Source: Martelella radicis
GTDB taxonomy: Bacteria; Pseudomonadota; Alphaproteobacteria; Rhizobiales; Rhizobiaceae
Assembly: GCF_014196625.1 (NCBI RefSeq)
Contig: NZ_JACIDZ010000006.1
Coordinates: forward strand, 186,001 to 250,000
DNA: 64,000 nucleotides
Direction: 5' to 3'
Positions 14,111 through 63,293 of the stretch are shown here, one piece after another. The notes under the pieces are model-generated. The model had not been told where the DNA came from, ran no database searches, and saw only the letters and a list, made by a program, of their open reading frames with translations. A program made the translations under genes and the position numbers. How positions within the stretch are numbered: position 1 is the stretch's first letter; each line of letters begins with the position of its first letter.

Positions 14111-15511
14111 ATGAAAATGCCTCAGGCGATCGGTGTCGTTCATTTTGTCGGCATCGGCGGTATCGGCATGAGCGGCATCGCCGAGGTTCTGAAGAATCTC
14201 GGCTATCAGGTTCAGGGCTCCGACCAGGCCGAAAGCGCCAATGTCCAGCGGCTGCGCGAGAAGGGCATTGCCGTTTCCATCGGGCACAGGCCGGAGAACC
14301 TGGGCGACGCGGAAGTCGTCGTCGTCTCCTCGGCGATCAAGCGCGCCAACCCCGAGCTCGTCGCCGCCCGCGAGAAACACTTGCCGGTCGTGCGCCGCGC
14401 GGAGATGCTGGCCGAACTGATGCGCTTTCGCGACGCGATCGCCATCGGCGGCACCCATGGCAAGACCACGACCACCTCAATGGTTGCCGCCCTGCTCGAC
14501 GCCGGCAATCTTGATCCGACCGTGATCAATGGCGGCATCATCAATGCCTATGGCACCAATGCGCGCATGGGCGAGGGGGACTGGATGGTGGTCGAGGCGG
14601 ATGAATCCGACGGCACCTTCCTGAAGCTTCCCGCCGAGATCGCCGTCGTCACCAATATCGATCCCGAACATCTCGACCATTATGGCACTTTCGACGGCGT
14701 GCGCGCCGCTTTCCGCCAGTTCGTCGAGAACGTGCCGTTCTATGGATGCGGCGTGCTCTGCCTCGACCATCCGGAAGTGCAATCGCTCGTCGGCCAGATC
14801 GAGGACCGGCGGATCGTTACCTATGGCGAGAACCGTCAGGCCGATGTGCGTTTTTCCAATATCCGCAACGAGGGCATCCATACGATCTTCGACGTCGATA
14901 TCCGCCGCCGTCGCCGGCCTTCGGTGAAGCTCGAGAACCTGGCGCTGCCGATGCCTGGCCGTCATAATGTGTCGAACGCGACCGCCGCGATTGCCGTTGC
15001 CGACCGACTGCATATCCCGGAAGAGGATATCCGCAAGGGGCTTGCCGCCTTTGGCGGCGTCAAGCGGCGGTTTACGCTGGTCGGCACCTGGAACGATGTG
15101 CAGATCTTCGATGACTACGGCCATCATCCGGTTGAAATCCGCTCCGTCCTCAGGGCCGCGCGCGAGGCTTGCAACGGCCGGATCATCGCCATTCATCAGC
15201 CGCATCGTTATTCGCGGCTGGAGAGCCTGTTCGAGGATTTCACCAATTGCTTCAATGATGCCGACACCGTGTTCATCGCGCCCGTCTATGCGGCCGGCGA
15301 GGATCCGCGCGAAGGCTATGACGGCGAAACGCTGGCTGCCGGGATCAGGGCGGCCGGTCACCGGGATGCGCGGTATCTTGCGGGCGAGGATGATCTTGCT
15401 GCCCGCGTCGCAAAGGTAGCCGAGCCCGGCGACTTCGTCGTTCTGCTTGGCGCGGGCAGCATCACCCAGTGGGCCGCGCGCCTGCCGGTTGCCCTTCAGG
15501 GAGCGGAGTGA
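14111..15511 (+). CDS. murC: UDP-MurNAc:L-alanine ligase MurC
   Basis: A 466-residue Mur ligase that adds the first amino acid, L-alanine, to UDP-MurNAc. The N-terminal dinucleotide-like loop GIGGIGMSG is at about 14-22 and the ATP loop GTHGKTT at 114-120. [10 protein letters not shown] and the FDDYGHHP segment are the conserved Mg/substrate motifs of MurC. ATG at 14111 lies four bases past the murG stop. The stop at 15509-15511 is 12 bases before murB. Confidence 0.96.
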
Positions 15512-34004: not shown

Positions 34005-34127
34005 TGTGCACACACCGCCGCAGTCAAAGCCGGAATCTGATCTTGTAGAATTAACTTCTGCAAGAAATATGGCCGCCAATAGTCTGATTGCGACACTGAC
34101 ACAGACAAATGCGCCAGCAAAGCCGAT

Positions 34128-34191
34128 CCCGATCCGGTTTGTGATTTTTTTGTGAAGCGTTGCGCATACGCTTCATCGCAACCGGATCGGG
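34128..34191. repeat. Long inverted repeat with nested hairpin upstream of the GlxA-type regulator
   Basis: CCCGATCCGGTT (34128-34139) is repeated inverted as AACCGGATCGGG (34180-34191), a perfect 12-bp stem. Inside it is a second perfect stem, TGAAGCG / CGCTTCA (34153-34159 with 34169-34175). A run of seven T sits between the two left arms. It lies 124 bases before the regulator start and could be an operator, a 5' leader structure or a mobile palindrome. Confidence 0.6.
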
Positions 34192-34229
34192 ACAGGGCGT
34201 TTTTCTCGTCCGCCATTGCTGCGTTGCGG

Positions 34230-40441: not shown

Positions 40442-43400
40442 TTGCTGGGACGAATACTTGTTTTCATCGGATCGCTGCTGGTTCTTCTGCTTTTTGCGGC
40501 CCTCGTCGTTCCCTATTTCGTCGACTGGAGCAGCTTTCGCCAGGAATTCGAGGTTCAGGCAAGCCGGGCGCTTGGCAAGAAGGTCGAGGTGGTCGGTGAT
40601 GTCGATGTCCGGGTTCTGCCTTTCCCGGCGATCACCATGCACGACGTCCGGGTCGGACGCGATGCCTCCGGCGAGCCGCTGGCAACGGCCGAGGCCTTTT
40701 CCATGGATGCCGAGCTCGCGCCGTTTCTGAGCGGCGAGGTCCGCATCTTCAAGATGCTGCTGGAACATCCGGTTCTCAACCTGACGCTCGACGAGACGGA
40801 TGCGCTGTCGTGGACGTCGACGGGCAATGGCCCGCTTTCGGCCCGGCGCGTTGTGTTCGAGGACGTGGAAATCCGCGATGGCGCGATCCGCCTTGCAGAT
40901 CCGACGGGCAATCCGCTGCGCACGCTGACCGACATCGATGCGATGCTCTCGGCCAATGCGATCGAGGGACCCTGGCGGATGGAGGGCAGCGCGGTGCTCG
41001 ACGGGCATGCGGGCGCCTTCACCATTCTCACCGGCCGGCCGGATTCGGAAACGGGATCGATGCGCCTCAGGCTTTCCGCCGATCCCGAGGAATGGCCGAT
41101 TTCGGCCGCGCTGGAGGGCGATGTCACGCTTGAGGACGGAAAGCCCGCCTATGCCGGCGGGTTCCGGCTTGCTGTTACCCAGGACGACGCGGAGGAAGTG
41201 CCGCCGCCGCGCGCCAGCGGCCAGTTCGAACTGACCAATGAATCGATCGCCATTTCCGAATACCGCCTGGAGGTCGGCACGCGGGTCGATCCCTATGTGA
41301 TCTCCGGCGAAGCGAATTTCGACACGCGTCCGGGCGGCAGCTTTCTGCTGACGGCGGATGGCCAGCAGTTCAATGTCGAGCGGCTTTCCGATTATGACAC
41401 CAATCTGAAGAAGGGCCGGGTGGCAACGCCCAGCGCGCGGGCCCGGCTCGACATGCTGATCGGCTTCCTACGGCAGGTGCCGATCCCGCAATTGCCCGGC
41501 AAGGTGACGTTCCGCCTGCCGGCGCTGGTTTCCGGCGACACCACGATCCGTTCGATCGTGCTCGACGCGGCACCCGACGGCGATGGCTGGCGGATTGAGC
41601 AAGGGTCGGCCGAATTGCCGGGGCGCACCCAGGTGGAGGCCTCCGGCAGGCTCTCTCTCGGGGAGGAGACGTCATTTGCCGGTTCGCTGCTTGTCGCCTC
41701 GCGCCAACCCTCGGGCCTTTCGCAGTGGCTGACCGGCAGCGTCGGCCCGGAAATCCGGGAGCTCGACCGGGCCGGTTTCTCTGCCGACGTCAATCTAGCC
41801 GCCGAGAGCCAGATTTTCGAAAACCTGCAGATCGTTGCCGGCGATGCCGTGCTGGATGGCGCTCTCTCACGTCAGTCTCGCGGCGCGGATACGCCCGACC
41901 TCGATCTCGACCTCTCCGGCAATGTCATCGATTTCAACGCATTGCGGGCGCTGGCCGGCCTGATGGTCGGAGAAAATATCGATAGCGGCCTGAGCCGCCA
42001 CCGCATTCACGCGACACTGAGGGCTGGCACGGTCAATGCCTTTGCTCTCGACGCCGAGCTTGTGGACGCGGATTTCACCTATCAGTCCGGGGCGCTTTCC
42101 GTCGATCGTCTCGACATCGGCAATCTTTCCGGCGCAGCGATCACGCTTTCAGGACAGGCCCAGACAGACCGCGACCTGCCGACGGGGTCCGGACGGCTGA
42201 CTCTCTCGGCCGGAGACATTTCCGGTTTTGTCGCGACGCTTCAGGACCGGCTTGGTGCGCATCCATTCCTTTCCATGCTGGCCGAAAATGCCGCCTGGTA
42301 TCAGAATACCGAGTTTGAGGCCGATCTTGCCTTCGGACAGGACGGAACGGGCGTTTCGGCTATCTTCTCCGGTAGCGCGAATGATAGCCGGATTTCCGGC
42401 TCCTGGCGCCGGGACGCCCTGTTCGGACCGGGAGGGATCAGTGGCCAGCTCCAGCTTTCGAATCCGGATGCGGCGGTTGTCTTCGGTCAGGCGGGGCTCG
42501 CGCCGCTTCCGATACCTGCACCTGCGGGCGCTCAGCTCTCGCTGTCGCTGGAACGGTCCGGGGAGACGGGACCCGTCGCCATCGGCCTTCGGGCTGCAAG
42601 CGGGGAGACGCGGCTTACGGCCACCGGAGAGGCGAGCCTCCTTGCCGATGATTTTCTTGCCGGCCGTTACTCGGTTTCGCTCACCAGCCCCGATCTCGAG
42701 CCATATCTGGCCATGAACGCCTTCGCCGTGCCGGGCACGGCCTTTGGCGTGCCTCTTTCTCTGAAGGCGGGCCTTGATGTGTCCCCGGAGGAGATCGCCT
42801 TCTCCGCAATTGAAGGCGATCTCGACGGCAATGGCGTGACGGGCCGCCTGGCCTTTCAGCGCGGCGAGCCGGTTGTTCGCCTCGATGGCGCGCTTTCACT
42901 GGACCGGCTTGATCTTGCCTGGCTGATGGAGGCCGTTTTCGGCCCGAATTTCGCGCTGGCACCGGAGGGATTGCCCGACACGCCCTTCGGATCCGCCTAT
43001 TTCGGCACCTCGGAGGCCGTGCTTGACATCCAGGCTGCTTCCTTCGACGCCGGCCTGAAGGAGCCGGTGACCGGCATGAGCGGCACGGTGGATTTCCGCG
43101 GCGGCGGGCTGTCGCTGACGGGCCTTGCAGGACGCATCTTCGACGGCACGCTCTCGGGCGATCTGCAACTCGGCAATTCAGGTGGCGATGGCTATTTCCA
43201 AGCGCAACTCAACCTTTCCGACGGCGCCCTGCCGGAAACGCTTTGGCTTGCGAACGGCAGGCCGGTTGCAAGCGGCCGTTTTGACCTCGGCCTGGTGGTT
43301 GAGACGACGGCGGATACCGCCGCAGGTCTGATGGCGCGGGCAAGCGGTTCCGGCATGCTGGCGCTGAAGTCGCCGGTGATCTCCGGAGTGGATCTGGCCG

Positions 43401-44137
43401 TTACCGAGCCGCTGCTGGCCTGGGCGGATGCTCAGGGCACGGAACTTGCCAATGAAGCGATCGAGGAGGAGATGCGGTCGCTGATTTTCGCCGACACGTC
43501 CTTTACCGCGAGCGATATCGCTATCCCGTTCAGCATCACGGACGGGGTGCTCCAGGCACGCAACGTCTTTGTCGACCTGCCAGATGCGCGCGTCTATGGC
43601 GCCTTGCGTACAGAACTTGCCGCGCGCGATCTGGAAGCCTCGATCGATGTGGCGCTGAAACTCGGCGCGGCAAGCGAGGAGGGAGCGAGCGCCGGCTTCA
43701 CCATCGGCTTCAACGGATCGCTTTCCGATCCGGTGCGCAGCCTCGACCTGACGGAGGTGAACAATTTCCTGGCGCTGCGGGCCGTCGAGCGCGAACGGGC
43801 GCGGGTGGAACGGCTGCAGGCCGATATTCTGGAGAAGCAGCGCCTGCGGCGCGAGGCGACGCTTTTTGAGTTCCGCGCCGAACAACGCGCGCTCGAGCGC
43901 CGCCAGCGAGAGGAGGCCGAGCGCCTGCGCCGCGAGGAGGAGGAACGGCGTCGGCGTGAGGCCGAAGACGCCGCTGCCGGCGATCAGGCCGCAATTCCCG
44001 TGCCGACGCCCGCAGCAGACGACGAGCCTTCGCAGATGGACGCACAGCCTGAAGAACCAAGCGACTGGGACCGGTTGATCGAATCGGTCATCCGCGGTGC
44101 CGAGGAGCAGCGCGGCGTTCAGGCGCCGCTTCCCTGA
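40442..44137 (+). CDS. AsmA family protein (large, 1231 residues)
   Basis: A 1231-residue inner-membrane anchored protein with one N-terminal helix (about 3-24), followed by the AsmA signature VPYFVDWSSFRQEFEVQASRALG (only part quoted here as VDWSSFR) and a long beta-rich repetitive periplasmic body. AsmA-like proteins form bridge-like lipid conduits to the outer membrane. The last 100 residues are unusually charged, dense in Arg and Glu (about 1120-1175), then an acidic tail. Start TTG at 40442 is well supported by AAGGAA with eight bases spacing. A terminator follows directly. Confidence 0.87.
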   Translation: MLGRILVFIGSLLVLLLFAALVVPYFVDWSSFRQEFEVQASRALGKKVEVVGDVDVRVLPFPAITMHDVRVGRDASGEPLATAEAFSMDAELAPFLSGEVRIFKMLLEHPVLNLTLDETDALSWTSTGNGPLSARRVVFEDVEIRDGAIRLADPTGNPLRTLTDIDAMLSANAIEGPWRMEGSAVLDGHAGAFTILTGRPDSETGSMRLRLSADPEEWPISAALEGDVTLEDGKPAYAGGFRLAVTQDDAEEVPPPRASGQFELTNESIAISEYRLEVGTRVDPYVISGEANFDTRPGGSFLLTADGQQFNVERLSDYDTNLKKGRVATPSARARLDMLIGFLRQVPIPQLPGKVTFRLPALVSGDTTIRSIVLDAAPDGDGWRIEQGSAELPGRTQVEASGRLSLGEETSFAGSLLVASRQPSGLSQWLTGSVGPEIRELDRAGFSADVNLAAESQIFENLQIVAGDAVLDGALSRQSRGADTPDLDLDLSGNVIDFNALRALAGLMVGENIDSGLSRHRIHATLRAGTVNAFALDAELVDADFTYQSGALSVDRLDIGNLSGAAITLSGQAQTDRDLPTGSGRLTLSAGDISGFVATLQDRLGAHPFLSMLAENAAWYQNTEFEADLAFGQDGTGVSAIFSGSANDSRISGSWRRDALFGPGGISGQLQLSNPDAAVVFGQAGLAPLPIPAPAGAQLSLSLERSGETGPVAIGLRAASGETRLTATGEASLLADDFLAGRYSVSLTSPDLEPYLAMNAFAVPGTAFGVPLSLKAGLDVSPEEIAFSAIEGDLDGNGVTGRLAFQRGEPVVRLDGALSLDRLDLAWLMEAVFGPNFALAPEGLPDTPFGSAYFGTSEAVLDIQAASFDAGLKEPVTGMSGTVDFRGGGLSLTGLAGRIFDGTLSGDLQLGNSGGDGYFQAQLNLSDGALPETLWLANGRPVASGRFDLGLVVETTADTAAGLMARASGSGMLALKSPVISGVDLAVTEPLLAWADAQGTELANEAIEEEMRSLIFADTSFTASDIAIPFSITDGVLQARNVFVDLPDARVYGALRTELAARDLEASIDVALKLGAASEEGASAGFTIGFNGSLSDPVRSLDLTEVNNFLALRAVERERARVERLQADILEKQRLRREATLFEFRAEQRALERRQREEAERLRREEEERRRREAEDAAAGDQAAIPVPTPAADDEPSQMDAQPEEPSDWDRLIESVIRGAEEQRGVQAPLP

Positions 44138-44669: not shown

Positions 44670-45725
44670 TCAAAGCGATTCCTGCGTCTTCAGCACCGGC
44701 GCATTCGACCAGTCCGGCTTGCTGATGCTTTGACGCGGCGGGGACGACCGGTTCTCGATCCGTGCCAGCACGGCGCGGGCAAGCTCGCGGCCTGCCTGGC
44801 TGAAATCCTCACTCATGGCGATGATCTCGGGGCTGATCCAGTTGAGGAAGTCAGCCGGCTGCTTGGCGACGAGATCGACATCTTTTCCAAGCTTCAGGCC
44901 GCGCGCCCTGAGCGCCGCCATGATCGGGATGGCGCTGCTGCCGGAACAGGCAATGACGCCGTCCGGCGGCGCTGACGACGAGAGCGCCGCCAGCACCCCG
45001 TTGCGGATTTCAGACAGCGATGAATCCGTGCTGACGGAGGTCAGCGGCGTTTCCTGCAGCCCGAAGCGGCTGAGGCCGCGCTCGAAGCCAGAGCGGAAAT
45101 AGCGGTAATAGGTGAGGTGGCTCGGCGGCTGCAGGCAGACGATGCGCTTGCGCCCGCGTTCCGCAAGCCTTTCCACCGCGTCCATCGCATAGGCGTCATT
45201 GTCGAAATCATGGAAAGGGTAGTCGTGGTCGCTCTCGGTGCGTCCGTGGGCGGCGAACGGCATCCCGCGCTCCCGCATCAGCGCAATGCGCGGGTCGTCC
45301 GGGGCGATGCGCGAGATGATCACCCCGTCGGCCGAACCGGTGTCGAGAATGTAGCGGATCGGCGCCATGGGGTCGTGGTGGATCGGCTGCGGCATCAGCA
45401 CCAGATGGTAGGGCGTGTCGGACAGCACGTCCGATATGCCGAATATCATCTGTCCCGACATGCCCATGATCTCCTCCTCCATGCTGAGGACGAGTGCGAT
45501 CACATTGGTCTTGCCGGTGCGAAGCCTGACGCCGGCGCGGTTCGGCATGTAGCCGAGCTGCTTGGCGACGAGCCGCACGCGTTCCTTGGTGTGCTCGGCG
45601 ATATCCGGCGCATCCTTCAGCGCGCGGGAGACGGTCGTCACCCCGAGCCCGGTCATATAGGCAATGGTCTTCAGTGTCGGGCGCGTATTGGTGGTCTCGC
45701 GCGATCTTCCGGTCGTGGGTTTCAT
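44670..45725 (-). CDS. LacI-family transcriptional regulator
   Basis: A 351-residue repressor. The LacI helix-turn-helix opens near residue 17 (TLKTIAYMTGLGVTTVSRAL) followed by the hinge helix and a periplasmic-binding-like sugar domain with VIALVLSMEE as first strand. It is divergent from the sugar ABC transporter operon that starts at 46320, so it most probably represses it and is released by the transported sugar or a metabolite. Candidate operators with the CGATAC core lie at 45804-45850 and 46011-46024, between this gene and the operon. Confidence 0.9.
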   Translation of the reverse strand: MKPTTGRSRETTNTRPTLKTIAYMTGLGVTTVSRALKDAPDIAEHTKERVRLVAKQLGYMPNRAGVRLRTGKTNVIALVLSMEEEIMGMSGQMIFGISDVLSDTPYHLVLMPQPIHHDPMAPIRYILDTGSADGVIISRIAPDDPRIALMRERGMPFAAHGRTESDHDYPFHDFDNDAYAMDAVERLAERGRKRIVCLQPPSHLTYYRYFRSGFERGLSRFGLQETPLTSVSTDSSLSEIRNGVLAALSSSAPPDGVIACSGSSAIPIMAALRARGLKLGKDVDLVAKQPADFLNWISPEIIAMSEDFSQAGRELARAVLARIENRSSPPRQSISKPDWSNAPVLKTQESL

Positions 45726-46319: not shown

Positions 46320-47552
46320 ATGAAACATGCAATTCTCACCGCCGCTCTGGCGGCCGGCGTAGCCATGCCTTTTGCAGCCAACGCGACCGACCTTGAAGTG
46401 ACCCACTGGTGGACTTCCGGCGGCGAGGCTGCGGCCGTGAAGGTGCTTGCCGACAATTTCAACGAGACCGGCAATAACTGGGTGGACAGCGCGATCGCCG
46501 GTTCCGGCTCGACCGCCAACCCGATCATCATCAGCCGCATTCTCGGCGGCAATCCCATGGGCGCGACCCAGATGAACACCGGTCGCGACGCCGAGGAGCT
46601 GATCAAGGCCGGCCTGATGCTGGACCTGACGGATCTCGCCGAGGAGGAAAACTGGGCGGAGAAGATCCGCCCCGCCAAGCTTCTCGGAGCCTGCGAATAT
46701 GACGGCCGCATCTACTGCGTGCCGATCAACATCCATTCCTGGCAGTAGATGTGGCTGAACCGCCACGTGTTCGAGGATAACGGCATTCCCGTGCCGACCA
46801 ACTGGCAGGAACTCGTGGACGCGGCGCCCGCGCTGCAGGAAGCCGGCGTCATTCCGCTCGCCACCGGGCAGCCCTGGCAGGTCGACGGCATCCGCAACGT
46901 GATGCAGGTCGCCATCGGCGGCGTCGACAATTATCTCGCCGTCAACGGCGACAAGGACCCCGACGCCGTGATGAGCGACGAAAACCGCGCCATCTGGGAA
47001 GCATTCGCCCAGGCGCGCGACATGGTCGACGACGCCTATTCCGGTCGTGACTGGAACGTCGCCACCAATATGGTCATCCAGGGCGATGCAGCCGCGCAGA
47101 TCATGGGCGACTGGGCGCAGGGCGAGTTCGCCCAGGCGGGCCAGGAAGCCGGCGTCGACTATGATTGCCTGCCGGGTCTCGGCAACAACCCCGTTCTCGA
47201 TACGGGCGGCGATGCCTTCTACTTCCCCAAGACCGACGACCCGGACATCACGGCGGCCCAGCTTGAGCTTGCTTCCATGCTGGTCTCGCCTGAAACCCAG
47301 GTCGAGTTCAACCTCGTCAAGGGCTCGCTTCCGGTGCGCGGCGATGTCGATCTCGAAGCCGCCAATGCCTGCATGAAGAAGGGTCTCGAGATCCTCGCCA
47401 ATCCTGAAAACGTCCTGCCGTCGACCGAGCAGCTGCTCGATTCCGACACGCAGGGCCAGATCACGGACCTGGCGCTGGAGTTCTTCTCCTCCGACATGAC
47501 GGTCGACGAGGCGCTCGAACAGCAGCAGTCGATCATCGAACAGGCCATGTAA
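46320..47552 (+). pseudogene. Sugar ABC transporter substrate-binding protein interrupted by in-frame TAG
   Basis: A solute-binding protein (COG1653 class, GtsA-like glucose/mannose relatives by the VTHWWTSGGEAAAV start) of about 410 codons with a signal peptide ending near ANA. TAG at 46746-46748 interrupts codon 143 in the segment NIHSWQ-stop-MWLNR. Relatives have Trp here, so TGG to TAG is the simplest cause, and the frame continues intact for 267 more codons to 47552. An ATG follows the stop directly, but a product from there would lack a signal peptide. All other genes of the operon look intact. Possibilities are recent loss of function, a sequencing error, or amber read-through. Confidence 0.85.
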
Positions 47553-47643: not shown

Positions 47644-48540
47644 ATGTCTGCTGTTGCTCGCCGTCCGCTCGGCCTGTTCAAGAACCTGAACGCCAAGATC
47701 GCGGCAATCCCGATGATGCTCACCGCAGTGTGCATCTTCATCGGCTGCACCGCCTGGACGGTCATCTATTCATTCACCGACTCGCGGCTTCTGCCGAGCG
47801 AGAATTTTGTCGGCTTTGCCCAGTATGACCGCCTGTTCGGCACGACCCGCTGGAATGTGGCGATCATCAATCTCCTGATCTACGGCGGCTTGAGTCTCGT
47901 CTTCTCCTTTGTCGTAGGCTTTCTTCTGGCCACGCTTCTCGACCAGAAGATCCGTTTCGAAAACACCTTCCGCACGATCTTTCTCTATCCCTTCGCGCTC
48001 TCCTTCATCGTCACCGGTCTTGTCTGGCAATGGATCCTCGACCCCGGACTCGGCGTGCCGAAATTCCTGGCCGATCTCGGCCTGCCTGGCGGCGATTTCG
48101 CCATGCTCGGCAACAAGAGCACGGTCATCTATGCGCTGGTGATTGCCGGTCTGTGGCAGGGAACGGGCCTTGTCATGGTGCTGATGCTGGCGGGCCTGCG
48201 CGGCATAGACGGCGAGATCTGGAAGGCGGCCAAGGTGGACGGCATCCCCGCCTGGAAGACCTATCTCTTCATCGTCATTCCGATGATGCGCGGCGTGTTC
48301 GTGACCACGCTGGTCATCGTCGCCTCGGGCATCGTGCGCGTCTACGACCTCGTCGTCGCCATGACCCAAGGGGGGCCCGGTTTCGCCTCGGAAGTGCCCG
48401 CCAAATATGTCTACGACCTGATGTTCCAGCGCGGCAATATCGGCCAGGGGCTCGCCGCCTCGACCGTGATGCTGGTCACCGTCTTCATCATCCTCGTGCC
48501 CTGGGCGCTGATGGAATTCAGAGACAAGAAGAAGAAGTGA
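47644..48540 (+). CDS. Sugar ABC transporter permease (MalF-type)
   Basis: A 298-residue inner-membrane protein with six predicted helices. The cytoplasmic EAA loop EIWKAAKVDGIPAWKTYLFI docks on the ATPase. It is the first of two permeases and belongs to the CUT1 carbohydrate family by context and loop. ATG at 47644 follows GAGGGGAGCTGCA. It is separated from the broken binding protein by 91 bases with a hairpin and from the second permease by ten bases. Confidence 0.9.
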   Translation: MSAVARRPLGLFKNLNAKIAAIPMMLTAVCIFIGCTAWTVIYSFTDSRLLPSENFVGFAQYDRLFGTTRWNVAIINLLIYGGLSLVFSFVVGFLLATLLDQKIRFENTFRTIFLYPFALSFIVTGLVWQWILDPGLGVPKFLADLGLPGGDFAMLGNKSTVIYALVIAGLWQGTGLVMVLMLAGLRGIDGEIWKAAKVDGIPAWKTYLFIVIPMMRGVFVTTLVIVASGIVRVYDLVVAMTQGGPGFASEVPAKYVYDLMFQRGNIGQGLAASTVMLVTVFIILVPWALMEFRDKKKK

Positions 48541-48550
48541 GGAGGGGACG

Positions 48551-49447
48551 ATGAGTACAGTTACGTCAACCGGACCGTCGGGTCCGCGCCCCAAACGCCG
48601 TTTCGCGCCGTCGCGGATCATTCTCTATTCCATCCTGTTCGTCGCTGCGGTCTACTACCTCATTCCCCTTTACGTGATGGTGGTGACCTCGCTGAAGGGC
48701 ATGCCGGAAATCCGCATGGGCAACATCTTCGCGCCCCCGGTGGAAATCACCTTCGAGCCATGGGTGAAGGCCTGGAGCCAGGCCTGCACCGGGCTCTACT
48801 GCGAAGGTATTCGCGTCGGCTTCTGGAACTCGGTGAAGATCACCGTGCCGGGGATCATCGTCTCGATCGCCGTAGCCTCGGTCAACGGCTATGCGCTGGC
48901 CAACTGGCGCTTCAAGGGCTCGGAGTTCTTCTTCACCGTGCTGCTTTTCGGCGCCTTCATTCCCTATCAGGTGATGCTCTATCCGCTGGTGATCATCCTG
49001 CGCGAACTGCACATGTTTTCGACGCTCCCGGGCATCGTGCTGGTGCATACGATTTTCGGCATGCCGATCCTGACGCTCCTGTTCCGCAACTACTTTGCCT
49101 CGTTGCCGGAGGAGCTGTTCAAGGCCGCCCGCGTCGACGGCGCCGGCTTCTGGCAGATCTTCTTCCGCATCATGCTGCCGATGTCGCTGCCGATCTTCGT
49201 CGTCGGTATGATCATCCAGACGACCGGCATCTGGAACGACTTCCTTTTCGGCGTGATCTTCGCCGGCCAGCAGAACTATCCGATGACGGTGCAGCTCAAC
49301 AACATCGTCAACGCCGTGCAGGGCGTGAAGGAATACAACGTCAACATGGCGGCAACGCTTCTGACCGGCCTCGTTCCGCTGGCCGTCTATTTCGTTTCCG
49401 GACCGCTGTTCGTGCGCGGCATCGCCGCCGGCGCGGTGAAAGGGTGA
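48551..49447 (+). CDS. Sugar ABC transporter permease (MalG-type)
   Basis: A 298-residue inner-membrane partner of the previous permease. Six hydrophobic segments and the EAA loop ELFKAARVDGAGFWQIFFRI are clear, along with the C-terminal FVRGIAAGAVKG end typical of MalG-type subunits. ATG at 48551 is preceded by GAGGAGGGGAC. The next gene begins on the base after the stop. Confidence 0.9.
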   Translation: MSTVTSTGPSGPRPKRRFAPSRIILYSILFVAAVYYLIPLYVMVVTSLKGMPEIRMGNIFAPPVEITFEPWVKAWSQACTGLYCEGIRVGFWNSVKITVPGIIVSIAVASVNGYALANWRFKGSEFFFTVLLFGAFIPYQVMLYPLVIILRELHMFSTLPGIVLVHTIFGMPILTLLFRNYFASLPEELFKAARVDGAGFWQIFFRIMLPMSLPIFVVGMIIQTTGIWNDFLFGVIFAGQQNYPMTVQLNNIVNAVQGVKEYNVNMAATLLTGLVPLAVYFVSGPLFVRGIAAGAVKG

Positions 49448-50542
49448 ATGATGACTACGAGTGTTTCAATCAAGGATCTGTCGCTCTCCTTCGGCGCGAT
49501 CGACGTGCTGAAAAATCTCGATCTCGACATTCAGGACGGCGAGTTTCTGGTCCTGCTCGGCTCGTCGGGCTGCGGCAAGTCGACGCTTCTGAACTGCATC
49601 GCCGGCCTTCTCGATGTCTCCGCCGGGCAGATTTTCATCAAGGACAGGAACGTCACCTGGCTTGAACCGAAGGATCGCGGTATCGGCATGGTGTTCCAGT
49701 CCTATGCGCTCTATCCGCAGATGACGGTGGAAAAGAATCTCTCCTTCGGCCTTCAGGTGGCGAAGATACCGAAAGCGGAGATCGACAAGCGCGTCAAACG
49801 GGCCTCCGAAATCCTGCAGATCGAACCGCTGCTGAAACGCAAGCCTGCGGAGCTTTCCGGGGGCCAGCGCCAGCGCGTCGCCATCGGTCGCGCTCTGGTG
49901 CGCGATGTCGACGTGTTCCTGTTCGACGAGCCGCTCTCCAACCTCGACGCCAAGCTCCGCTCCGAACTGCGCGTCGAGATCAAGCGGCTGCACCAGTCGC
50001 TGGAAAACACGATGATCTATGTGACCCATGACCAGATCGAGGCGATGACGCTTGCCGACCGGATCGCGATCATGCGCGGCGGCGTCATCCAGCAGCTCGA
50101 CGAGCCGACGACGATCTACAATCGCCCGGTTAACCGCTATGTCGCGGGTTTCATCGGTTCCCCCTCGATGAATTTCCTCGACGGGGAACTGGCTGAGAAG
50201 GACGGGAAGACGATCTTCCGGTCGAACGGCGTTGACTTCGGCCTCGACGGTTATGAAGGCAACGGGCCGCTGCCGGCCTCCGGCAAGGTCATTCTCGGCG
50301 TCCGGCCGGAACATGTGTTGGTCGACGACGAAATTCCCCAGGGCCAGGAGGTCCATGAGGCCGTGGTCGACCTCGAGGAGCCGATGGGCGCGGACAATCT
50401 GTTGTGGCTGAAACATGCCGGCCACCTGTTCACCGTGCGCGTCGGCGGCAACAAGCGCTACAAGCCGGGCCAGCAGATCAGGCTCGCCTTCGCCATGGAA
50501 CTGGCATCGCTGTTCGACGCGGAAACGGAGCTTAGACTGTGA
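49448..50542 (+). CDS. Sugar ABC transporter ATP-binding protein (UgpC/MsmX-type)
   Basis: A 364-residue ABC ATPase that powers the two permeases. Walker A is GSSGCGKST at 38-46, the signature LSGGQRQR and Walker B LFDEPLSNLD follow, and a regulatory TOBE/OB C-terminal domain (about 240-364) marks the CUT1 family. ATG at 49448 is directly adjacent to the MalG-type stop, and a second ATG follows. ATPases of this type are sometimes shared among sugar transporters, so it may keep a use even if the local binding protein is lost. Confidence 0.93.
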   Translation: MMTTSVSIKDLSLSFGAIDVLKNLDLDIQDGEFLVLLGSSGCGKSTLLNCIAGLLDVSAGQIFIKDRNVTWLEPKDRGIGMVFQSYALYPQMTVEKNLSFGLQVAKIPKAEIDKRVKRASEILQIEPLLKRKPAELSGGQRQRVAIGRALVRDVDVFLFDEPLSNLDAKLRSELRVEIKRLHQSLENTMIYVTHDQIEAMTLADRIAIMRGGVIQQLDEPTTIYNRPVNRYVAGFIGSPSMNFLDGELAEKDGKTIFRSNGVDFGLDGYEGNGPLPASGKVILGVRPEHVLVDDEIPQGQEVHEAVVDLEEPMGADNLLWLKHAGHLFTVRVGGNKRYKPGQQIRLAFAMELASLFDAETELRL

Positions 50543-50631: not shown

Positions 50632-50675
50632 TCTCAATGCGGAGTTCGGCAGCCAGGATCTGCCGGGAGGATGAG

Positions 50676-51437
50676 ATGACAAAACTCGGATTTCAACTGT
50701 ATAGCGCGCGCAACTATCAGCCCTTTTCGGGCGTGTTCAAAAAGCTCGCGGCTGCGGGTTATGGCGAGGTCGAAGGCTATGGCGCGCTTTACGACGACCT
50801 CGACGAGGCCGGCCTCGACCGGCTTGCCTCCGATCTCGAGGCGATCGGCCTCTCGATGCCGACCGGCCATTTCGGCCTTTCGATGCTGGAGACGGATCCC
50901 GATCGGGTCCTGGAGATCGCCTCTAGGCTGAAGATGGACAGCGTGTTCTGCCCGTTCCTCTTGCCCGACCAGCGGCCCGACACGGCCGGGGGGTGGAAGG
51001 AATTCGGCGCGCGGCTGGAGGCGGCCGGCAAGCCTTTCCGCGACGCCGGCCTCGTCTTCGGCTGGCATAACCACAATTTCGAGTTCGAGCTTCTGCCTGA
51101 CGGCACGGCGCCGATGCGTCACATTATGGCCGGCGGGCCCTCGCTGGCCTGGGAAGCCGATATTGCCTGGGTGATCCGCGGCGATGCCGATCCCTATTTC
51201 TGGATCGAGCTCTTCAAGGAGCGGATCACCGCCGTCCATGTGAAGGATATTGCCGAGGAAGGCGAGAACGAGGACGAGGATGGCTGGGCCGATGTCGGCT
51301 ACGGCACGGTCGACTGGAAGGGCCTGATGAAGGTGCTGAAGTCGATGCCGATCAAGCATTACATCGTCGAGCATGACAATCCGAACGACATCGACCGGCT
51401 GATCGAGCGTTCGATCGCATCTTTCCAGACCTTCTGA
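50676..51437 (+). CDS. Sugar phosphate isomerase/epimerase-like TIM-barrel protein
   Basis: A 253-residue protein of the AP-endonuclease-2/xylose-isomerase-like TIM-barrel family (IolE/IolI type). Visible metal-site segments are GWHNHNFEFE, with the Glu expected on the central strands, WEADIAWV and VHVKDI. ATG at 50676 has GGGAGG five bases upstream; earlier in-frame residues are noise. It sits in the sugar ABC operon, 11 bases before a Gfo/Idh/MocA dehydrogenase. That pairing is typical of pathways that oxidise and then isomerise or dehydrate a sugar or inositol. The substrate is unknown. Confidence 0.85.
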   Translation: MTKLGFQLYSARNYQPFSGVFKKLAAAGYGEVEGYGALYDDLDEAGLDRLASDLEAIGLSMPTGHFGLSMLETDPDRVLEIASRLKMDSVFCPFLLPDQRPDTAGGWKEFGARLEAAGKPFRDAGLVFGWHNHNFEFELLPDGTAPMRHIMAGGPSLAWEADIAWVIRGDADPYFWIELFKERITAVHVKDIAEEGENEDEDGWADVGYGTVDWKGLMKVLKSMPIKHYIVEHDNPNDIDRLIERSIASFQTF

Positions 51438-51448
51438 ACGAGGCAAAC

Positions 51449-52591
51449 ATGACCAAGGAACTGGGTGTCGGCATCCTCGGATGCGGCAATATTTCCGCGA
51501 CCTATTTTTCGCTCGCGCCGATGTTCAAGGGGCTGAACGTGCTGGCCTGCGCCGACATCAATGCCGCCGCGGCCAAGGCGCGGGCGGAGGAATATGGCGT
51601 CACCGCGCAAGGCGTCGACGAACTCTTCGCCAATGACGAGATCGATGTCATCGTCAATCTCACCATTCCGGCGGCGCATTACGAAATGTCGCGCCGCGCG
51701 CTGGAAGCCGGCAAGCATGTCTATTCGGAAAAGCCGCTCGTGCTTTCCGTCGATGAGGGCAAGGAACTCGGGCGCCTCGCGGCGGAAAAGGGCCTTGCCG
51801 TCGGCTGCGCGCCGGATACGTTTCTCGGCGGCGCCCACCAGCGCGCCCGCAAATATATCGATGAGGGCAAGGTCGGCCGGATCACCTCCGGCACCTGCCA
51901 TGTGATGAGCGCGGGCATGGAGATGTGGCACCCGAACCCGGACTTCTTCTTCCTGCCCGGCGGCGGGCCGGTGCTCGATCTCGGGCCTTACTACATCGCC
52001 AATCTGATCAACCTGATCGGCCCGGTGAAGCGGGTTGCGGCGCTGACGTCGATGGCCAACGAAACCCGCACCATCACGTCCGAACCGCGCAAGGGCGAGA
52101 TCATTCCGGTCAAGACCCCGACCAATATTCATGCGCTTCTGGAATTCGAGAACGGCGCGACGGTCTCGCTTGCGGCAAGCTGGGATGTCTTTGCCCACCG
52201 CCATTCCCCCATGGAGCTTTACGGAACGGAAGGCTCGCTGTTCGTGCCCGATCCGAACTTCTTCGGCGGAACGGTTGAGGCGGCCGGGCGCGACGGCAAG
52301 ATCGATCTACTGGATCTCGGCGATCATCCTTTCGCCAAGCCGAACCAGGATTTCGACAAGGGCGACAAGCGCGGGCGGGCGAACTACCGCACCGCCGGGC
52401 TTGCCGACATGGCCGTGGCCCTGATCGAGGGGCGGGACGCCCGCTGCTCGCTCGAACGCGCGCTTCACGGCGTCGATGTCATGGCCGCGATCCTGAAATC
52501 GGGCGAGACCGGCGCCTTCGTGCCGCTGTCGACCACCTGCACGCAGCCGGCCGCACTCGACGCCGAGGCGGCGGCAGCGCTTCTGCGGTAA
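51449..52591 (+). CDS. Gfo/Idh/MocA family oxidoreductase
   Basis: A 380-residue NAD(P)-dependent dehydrogenase. The Rossmann start is GILGCGNIS (8-16), the catalytic EKPLVLS motif comes near residue 92, and GGGPVLDLGPYYIANLINL carries the active-site region. It is last in the sugar ABC operon and the likely partner of the isomerase. A dehydrogenase plus TIM-barrel partner suggests a C2/C3-oxidation route, as known for inositol or 3-keto-glycosides; this is inference. It converges with the AraC gene 20 bases on. Confidence 0.87.
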   Translation: MTKELGVGILGCGNISATYFSLAPMFKGLNVLACADINAAAAKARAEEYGVTAQGVDELFANDEIDVIVNLTIPAAHYEMSRRALEAGKHVYSEKPLVLSVDEGKELGRLAAEKGLAVGCAPDTFLGGAHQRARKYIDEGKVGRITSGTCHVMSAGMEMWHPNPDFFFLPGGGPVLDLGPYYIANLINLIGPVKRVAALTSMANETRTITSEPRKGEIIPVKTPTNIHALLEFENGATVSLAASWDVFAHRHSPMELYGTEGSLFVPDPNFFGGTVEAAGRDGKIDLLDLGDHPFAKPNQDFDKGDKRGRANYRTAGLADMAVALIEGRDARCSLERALHGVDVMAAILKSGETGAFVPLSTTCTQPAALDAEAAAALLR

Positions 52592-61212: not shown

Positions 61213-61902
61213 TCAGATCACGTCGAATGCAAGTTTTCCGACAGTCTCGATCTCGCATTCGATCCGGTCGCCTCTCGAAACCGGCCCCACGCCCGAGGGC
61301 GTTCCCGTCAGGATGATGTCGCCGGGAGCGAGCGTTACATAGCGCGACAGTTCCGCTATGATCTCCGGCACCTTCCAGATCATCTGGTTGAGGTCGCCGT
61401 TCTGCGTCTCGGCGCCATTGCGCAAGAGCGTGATCGCGCCCTTTTCGGGGTGGCCGATCTCCTCCGCGGGCGCGATCGCGGATACCGGCGCTGAATGCTC
61501 GAAGGCCTTTGCCATCTCCCAGGGCCGGCTTTTCGCCTTCGCCTCGTCCTGAATATCGCGCCGGGTGAGATCCACGGAGACGCCGTAGCCGTATACACAG
61601 TCCAGAGCATCTTCGACGCCGATATCAGCGCCGCCATCTTTCAGCGCCACATAGCATTCGACCTCGTGGTGTACGTTGGCGGTGAGGCTTGGATAGGCAA
61701 AGGGCTGTCCCGGCAAAAGCAGATTGTCGGCGTTCTTCTGGAAGAAGAACGGCGCCTCGCGTTCCGGGTCGTGGCCCATTTCCACAGCATGGGCCGCGTA
61801 GTTGCGGCCGACGCAGTAGACGCGACGGACCGGGAAGCGCTCTTCAATACCGGTAACGGGGAGCAGGATTGCGTGCGGCGGGGGAATGACGGTTGCTGGC
61901 AT
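61213..61902 (-). CDS. Fumarylacetoacetate hydrolase family protein
   Basis: A 229-residue FAH-fold enzyme, which cleaves a C-C bond or hydrates in aromatic or pyruvate-type pathways. Typical signatures are VYCVGRNYAAHAVEMG at the start, FFFQKNADN, the metal site HHEVECYVAL and the end segment LTGTPSGVGPV. ATG at 61902 was chosen because the longer open frame upstream has no family match. First gene of an apparent operon with the carbonic anhydrase and diguanylate cyclase, divergent from the second cyclase. Confidence 0.9.
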   Translation of the reverse strand: MPATVIPPPHAILLPVTGIEERFPVRRVYCVGRNYAAHAVEMGHDPEREAPFFFQKNADNLLLPGQPFAYPSLTANVHHEVECYVALKDGGADIGVEDALDCVYGYGVSVDLTRRDIQDEAKAKSRPWEMAKAFEHSAPVSAIAPAEEIGHPEKGAITLLRNGAETQNGDLNQMIWKVPEIIAELSRYVTLAPGDIILTGTPSGVGPVSRGDRIECEIETVGKLAFDVI

Positions 61903-62219: not shown

Positions 62220-63293
62220 ATGATGGAGAATGTGGGTATTCTCGCGACCATGCTGGAAAAGGTGGGTTTGGCGGCATTGGTCATTCTGACGTACCGCGCC
62301 ATCCTGCGTTCGCGCTGGCCGGCGCTCTGGTCCGGCCCGGCGATCGGCCTTCTCTTCAGTTTCGGCGCAGCCATTTCGATGATCGATCCGCTGGTGGTTG
62401 GTCCCGGTTTCATCCTGGATATCCGCGTGATCATGATCGGCCTGGCCGCGCTTTTCGGCGGAGTCTGGGCGGCGCTGATTGCGGGCGCTGTCGCCGTTAC
62501 CATCAGGATACTTATCGGCGGGGCCGGTGTTATGCCGGGCACGGTCAGCATCGTGCTGGCGACCATCGTCGCGCTTGCCTTCGTGCGGTATTGCGGCAAT
62601 GGCCGCGATCTGCGCAACCTCGCGCTTCTTGGTCTCTCGATCTCGCTGAGCCTCCTGACCGTCTTTCTTCTGCCGCTCGATTTCGCCCTCAGCACGGCGT
62701 TCCATTCGCTGCCGGCCCTTGTGCTGCGCAATCTGCTCGGCACGATGATCCTCGGCTATTTTCTGGCGATGGAGGAGCGGCGCGAGGTCGAACACAAGAC
62801 CTTCAAGGAACAGGCCGAGCGCGACGCGCTCACAGGCCTCTCCAACCGCCGGGCACTCGAACTGCTCGAGCGGCGCGATTCGGGCCATCAGACGCCGGAA
62901 CTCTTCTGTGTCATCATGTTCGATCTGGACCACTTCAAGAGCGTCAACGACAGCTATGGGCATGGTCTCGGCGATGTCGTTCTGGCGCGCTTTGCCGAAA
63001 TCATCACGCGACGTATCCGCGGAAGCGACATCGTCGTGCGCTATGGCGGCGAGGAATTCTGCGTGATCCTCAATGATGCGCTTCTCAGCAATGCCGCGCG
63101 CATCGCCGAAGATATCAGGGGGCAACTTGCCGACGAGATTTTCTCCCACGATGTCAGGGTAACCGTGAGCGCGGGCGTGGCCCAATCATCGGCGGCTGTG
63201 CCGTCGGTCTATTCCGTGATCAAGCAGGCGGACCAAGCGCTTTACGAAGCCAAGGGCAATGGGCGCAACCGCGTGGAAATTCATACATCATAG
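62220..63293 (+). CDS. Diguanylate cyclase with 5TMR-LYT-like membrane domain
   Basis: A 357-residue c-di-GMP synthase. The N-terminal half has about five or six membrane helices with the pattern of the 5TMR-LYT sensing module (FGAAISMIDPLVVGPGF, FGGVWAALIAGAVAV). The GGDEF domain has DALTGLSNRR, MFDLDHFKSVNDSYGHGLGD and GGEEF. An Arg three residues before the Asp in RGSD supplies the RxxD inhibitory site that the first cyclase of this window lacks. Doublet ATG at 62220. Convergent with gnd. Confidence 0.92.
   Translation: MMENVGILATMLEKVGLAALVILTYRAILRSRWPALWSGPAIGLLFSFGAAISMIDPLVVGPGFILDIRVIMIGLAALFGGVWAALIAGAVAVTIRILIGGAGVMPGTVSIVLATIVALAFVRYCGNGRDLRNLALLGLSISLSLLTVFLLPLDFALSTAFHSLPALVLRNLLGTMILGYFLAMEERREVEHKTFKEQAERDALTGLSNRRALELLERRDSGHQTPELFCVIMFDLDHFKSVNDSYGHGLGDVVLARFAEIITRRIRGSDIVVRYGGEEFCVILNDALLSNAARIAEDIRGQLADEIFSHDVRVTVSAGVAQSSAAVPSVYSVIKQADQALYEAKGNGRNRVEIHTS

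Follow-up and report, generated by a model that had tools for sequence, protein, structure and literature searches.

The window analyzed here (64,000 nucleotides, bases 186001 to 250000 of contig 6 in the 4,985,483-base, 41-contig draft genome of Martelella radicis) holds a carbohydrate uptake operon in which the first transport gene is interrupted by one in-frame TAG codon (Table 1). The interrupted gene encodes the solute-binding protein of a carbohydrate ABC transporter, as judged from its Pfam match and from the adjoining permeases and MalK-like ATPase. The part downstream of the TAG matches PF13416 (SBP_bac_8) and PF01547 (SBP_bac_1) at 51.3 and 41 bits against cut-offs of 27 and 26; the N-terminal part alone reaches 23.2 bits with PF01547 (SBP_bac_1), under its cut-off of 26. 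The interrupted frame terminates in TAA (47550-47552), and the protein specified by the C-terminal part is 100% identical to that of the sister genome (G004). An ATG lies immediately 3' of the TAG (46746-46751), and by eye we saw neither a signal peptide on the C-terminal part nor a clear ribosome-binding site for this ATG.

Table 1. Features of the interrupted operon, in window coordinates
Feature	Position	Strand	Remarks
LacI-family regulator, intact	44670..45725	-	upstream, divergent from operon; open frame, Pfam, relatives compared
Sugar-binding protein, N-terminal part	46320..46745	+	142 codons open; start signal-peptide-like (by eye)
5' arm of perfect 10-bp inverted repeat	46709..46718	+	contains synonymous change at 46715
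3' arm of perfect 10-bp inverted repeat	46742..46751	+	contains TAG base 46747
In-frame TAG, codon 143	46746..46748	+	Trp (TGG) in relatives
Sugar-binding protein, C-terminal part	46749..47552	+	267 open codons (46749-47549)
Permease 1 (BPD_transp_1), intact	47644..48540	+	open frame, Pfam, relatives compared
Permease 2 (BPD_transp_1), intact	48551..49447	+	open frame, Pfam, relatives compared
ATPase, MalK-type (ABC_tran + OB_MalK + TOBE_2), intact	49448..50542	+	open frame, Pfam, relatives compared
Xylose-isomerase-like TIM-barrel protein (PF01261), intact	50673..51437	+	open frame, Pfam, relatives compared
Gfo/Idh/MocA dehydrogenase, intact	51449..52591	+	open frame, Pfam, relatives compared

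The original prediction, made from the letters of this DNA, had described a binding-protein gene split by an in-frame TAG, with 267 residues open from the very next codon, among complete genes for both permeases, the ATPase, the isomerase, and the dehydrogenase. The open frames on both sides of the stop bear out the first two points, and open frames together with Pfam matches confirm the third. No neighboring gene has a premature stop at codons aligned with relatives, in comparisons that covered eight other genomes for the ATPase, isomerase, and dehydrogenase, and that covered permease 2 and the regulator in part in some genomes, where the loci are short. Two paralogues of the binding protein, 42 to 43% identical and with open frames, are encoded elsewhere in the genome. 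The sister's intact binding protein reaches no family cut-off in NCBIfam.

Distribution of the stop among relatives and age of the change

Codon 143 is TGG in all 12 other genomes of the genus that were compared, and in each of these the C-terminal half sits in an open frame of at least 435 codons. A scan of genome contigs using peptide patterns, none of which contains the Trp at codon 143, likewise returned TGG at 80 of 80 loci, these being the best 80 of at least 560 relatives. Trp is thus the residue that relatives have at the site of the TAG, as had been anticipated. Orthologues that share the stop, which the original prediction had said would speak against it, were found at none of these 92 loci (the 12 genus genomes and the best 80 of at least 560 relatives), which are not all independent, since two of them (L036 and G006) are the same contig. 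The absence of the stop from orthologues is what marks a recent nonsense mutation or young pseudogene. In alignments with proteins of solved structure, the Trp at codon 143 coincides with a Trp in the binding proteins 4r2b, 5xpj, 8hqq, and 5dvf, and with a Val in the more distant 2b3b.

To place the change in time, we polarized unique changes against three relatives (G004, G005, and G010) at sites where all three agree. By this measure the unique changes in the binding-protein gene are 20 synonymous ones, none in amino acids, and the one nonsense change; the sister's gene, in the same comparison, has 24 unique synonymous changes and 1 unique amino-acid change. Pairwise, the two genes differ at 49 synonymous and 3 amino-acid codons, the stop apart. 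Neutral fractions in this gene are 0.276 for synonymous and 0.692 for amino-acid changes, so that a gene without selection over the whole branch would be expected to carry ≈50 amino-acid changes where none is seen. The gene was under purifying selection up to the stop change, and the zero count makes the stop very recent: arithmetic from the neutral fractions dates the loss to within approximately the last 6% of the branch. With no unique amino-acid change in the gene, relaxed selection since the stop may be too young to show, the gene may still be selected, or the base may be an error. Zero amino-acid changes are equally expected under a wrong base or under read-through; the count dates the change and favors no reading.

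An inverted repeat at the stop

At the stop there is a perfect inverted repeat of 10 bp with a 23-base loop, and the TAG belongs to its 3' arm; folding of the region likewise yields a long stem that has the TAG in its 3' arm. Two bases of the repeat, 46747 in the TAG and 46715 in the opposite arm, differ from those of G004, G005, and G010, and each converts a T-G pairing to a Watson-Crick pair; at 46715, however, G003 and G002 have the same base as this genome. The same stop change placed on the sister gene gives a stem of only 6 bp, and the 10-bp stem thus depends on 46715. None of the 104 other nonsense changes possible in this gene would fall in a stem of at least 8 bp, and in the sister gene 1 of 105 possible nonsense changes reaches an 8-bp stem and none a 9-bp stem. 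Among random single substitutions in the sister gene, 16 of 3699 reach a stem of at least 10 bp. When 3000 genes were simulated with 21 random changes each, 195 had at least one change in a stem of at least 10 bp, and 15 had two or more in one stem.

Across the window, six stems of at least 10 bp contain changes unique to this genome, and all six hold two or more. These perfect inverted repeats of 10 to 13 bp lie at 15397-15461, 34127-34192, 42791-42823, 43616-43674, 46709-46751, and 61432-61477. Together they account for 17 of 2038 unique changes. In a type-matched random control 4.5 changes would be expected in these stems, where 17 of 2040 were observed, but the changes are clustered; 0.5% of 6000 sampled bases of this genome sit in such stems as background, and the difference from 17 of 2040 is small. 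The corresponding numbers of stems with unique changes in the relatives are 1 for G004 (1529 changes), 3 for G005 (652), and 0 for G010 (989), and none of these holds two. In larger, unpolarized samples the stems number 19 in this genome versus 16 in the sister on contig 6 and 26 versus 15 on C1 (45 versus 31 in total); this asymmetry is mild, and we therefore claim no process or artefact specific to this genome.

Template switching associated with quasipalindromes makes an imperfect repeat more perfect (Klaric et al. 2020, PMC7202029). The stop change has this effect, with arms of 10 bp as against 6 bp on the sister background. Changes made by one such event would lie in one arm, whereas here 46715 is in the 5' arm and 46747 in the 3' arm, a pattern that a single template switch would not produce. 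We take the repeat as a weak post hoc hint, and think it less likely than not that template switching, acting on an imperfect form of the repeat, produced the TAG.

Lesions elsewhere in the genome and decoding of TAG

We scanned this genome against the sister in both directions on contig 6 and part of C1 (345 sister genes with a counterpart here, ≈371 kb of coding sequence), accepting only counterparts of at least 75% identity. On contig 6, stops were flagged in seven genes of this genome, that of the binding protein included, and a frameshift in one; on C1, ten genes had a flagged stop, and one of the ten a flagged frameshift too. Two of these lesions were judged clean, namely the binding-protein TAG and a frameshift in a gene for a putative glutaminase-like protein; inspection by eye put the remaining flags down to start-site extensions, overlap with a neighboring gene, or nonmatching flanks. 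Raw flags in the sister numbered 10 for stops and 7 for frameshifts on contig 6, two of the latter mirroring the frameshift in the glutaminase-like gene; the corresponding numbers on C1 were 7 and 3. Two clean lesions per 345 genes looks ordinary in our judgement, and neither wholesale decay of the genome nor an assembly of very low quality is indicated.

The frameshift, which also lies on contig 6 but shortly beyond the end of the window (L155 ≈2150; G000:C6 ≈252150), results from the insertion of one base next to a run of A. On the two sides of the insertion, protein identity to G004 is 98.6% and 100%, and G004, G005, and G010 all have an unbroken frame.

Over 53 genes of the window, this genome has 263 unique amino-acid changes to 1341 synonymous ones, and the sister 168 to 1020. 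Two segments have more unique changes than the sister: window positions 40442-44137, with 181 synonymous and 53 amino-acid changes unique to this genome (84 and 18 in G004), and 62220-63293, with 48 and 26 (36 and 2 in G004). Import of DNA or a higher rate of change may lie behind these excesses.

A search with Rfam turned up 45 tRNA genes, all 45 of which were decoded by ARAGORN. The amber suppressor tRNA that the original prediction had proposed to look for is not among them, as none of the 45 has a CTA anticodon; tRNA-Ile(GAT) and tRNA-Ala(TGC) are missing from the same 45, and the tRNA complement of the assembly is therefore probably not complete. Release factor 1 (prfA) is intact and scores over its cut-off, the best match to PylS, at 21.1 bits, falls short of the cut-off of 178.15, and TAG is the terminator of 57 of the 339 conserved genes sampled from this genome (27 of 171 and 30 of 168). 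We see no indication that this organism decodes TAG.

Explanations for the stop and its likeness to known systems

We consider a very recent one-base nonsense mutation, with loss of the binding protein, to be the probable explanation; the stop is absent from the relatives examined and would be strain- or species-specific as far as seen. Of the three readings originally offered, recent loss and sequencing error survive, and read-through by a suppressor tRNA is not supported. Next most likely is a consensus or base-call error, such that the isolate has TGG and an intact gene, although we regard this as unlikely. The draft state of the genome and a binding-protein gene without other signs of decay are compatible with an error, and the second apparent lesion, ≈19 kb away next to a run of A, may be a sign of an imperfect assembly. 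Errors that mimic gene breaks are known: resequencing of a published genome is reported to have shown that 75 of its 82 suspect loci were errors (PMC2330054). On the other hand, the change substitutes one base and is not an indel in a homopolymer, and raw lesion flags occur in the sister too. The ratio of unique amino-acid to synonymous changes in the window is also little above that of the sister, a comparison that bounds the error rate weakly.

That a working protein is made because the TAG is read through, via a suppressor tRNA or its context, appears very unlikely, although purifying selection reaches the present and in-frame stops in genes with dN/dS <1 are reported to be widespread among bacteria (Belinky et al. 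2021, PMC7918605). A stem-loop does span the TAG (z of -2.77, with 1 of 200 shuffles as stable), but the TAG sits inside the 3' arm of the stem and not 5' of it. Read-through is not supported, because no tRNA with a CTA anticodon was found among the 45, release factor 1 is intact, and TAG is an ordinary terminator; PylS stays under its cut-off as well. One can imagine a tolerated stop at which basal read-through of a binding protein made in excess turns uptake down rather than off, and which originated at a hairpin hotspot and might arise anew in other strains, but we hold this to be highly improbable. Least credible to us is a split gene whose two parts now act together as separate proteins: the ATG right after the TAG makes a restart possible, but the C-terminal part is devoid of a signal peptide and of an evident ribosome-binding site by eye. 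Both read-through and a split gene also sit poorly with a stop that occurs at 0 of the 92 loci, 80 of which are the best of at least 560 relatives.

If the TAG is real, as the nonsense mutation would have it, a single-base change from TGG to TAG in the binding-protein gene of this carbohydrate ABC transporter operon would end translation after codon 142 and leave an exported N-terminal fragment without most of the protein. A ribosome restart at the adjacent ATG, should it occur, would yield a C-terminal fragment without a signal peptide. Since neither fragment is expected to deliver sugar to the permease/ATPase complex, which is itself intact, high-affinity uptake via this route would be lost or strongly reduced. 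Importers of this class depend on their binding protein, and the total loss of that route for the sugar, as originally foreseen, would be a fair expectation; the two paralogues are present elsewhere in the genome, however, and binding proteins are usually made in excess, so that basal read-through could leave some uptake. If the stop is ordinary, it matters little: those who use the genome learn that the sequenced isolate has probably switched off one operon for sugar uptake, and that a check of the base ought to precede metabolic modeling. Should the change prove genuine and a product of template switching, it would illustrate on a small scale how a hairpin can direct gene loss in an alphaproteobacterium in nature.

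The closest proteins of known structure are the glucose-type solute-binding proteins 4r2b, 5xpj, 8hqq, and 5dvf, which the sister's intact protein matches over most of its length (E values of 1e-73 to 2e-67), followed by the more distant glucose-type protein 2b3b (E value of 5e-29); unlike all of these, the Martelella copy is interrupted. With pyrrolysine and amber-suppressor decoding the locus has in common an in-frame TAG, but it differs from those systems in that no suppressor tRNA was found among the tRNA genes of the assembly, no PylS match exceeds the cut-off, and no relative examined has the stop. Its likeness to quasipalindrome template-switch mutations (PMC7202029) is a changed base in a repeat that is perfect once changed; here, however, changes are found in both arms, and one of them is common to two other relatives. 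The Martelella stop is an ordinary event. According to the survey of bacterial in-frame stops (PMC7918605), such stops tend to last a short evolutionary time and follow no major functional trend save for mobile elements; carbohydrate transport and metabolism comes second to these in size (6126 cases). That survey kept stops common to at least two species to limit artefacts and would, by this rule, not count the Martelella stop, which is seen in one genome only; what the latter shares with the surveyed cases is a single in-frame stop, matching flanks, and purifying selection.
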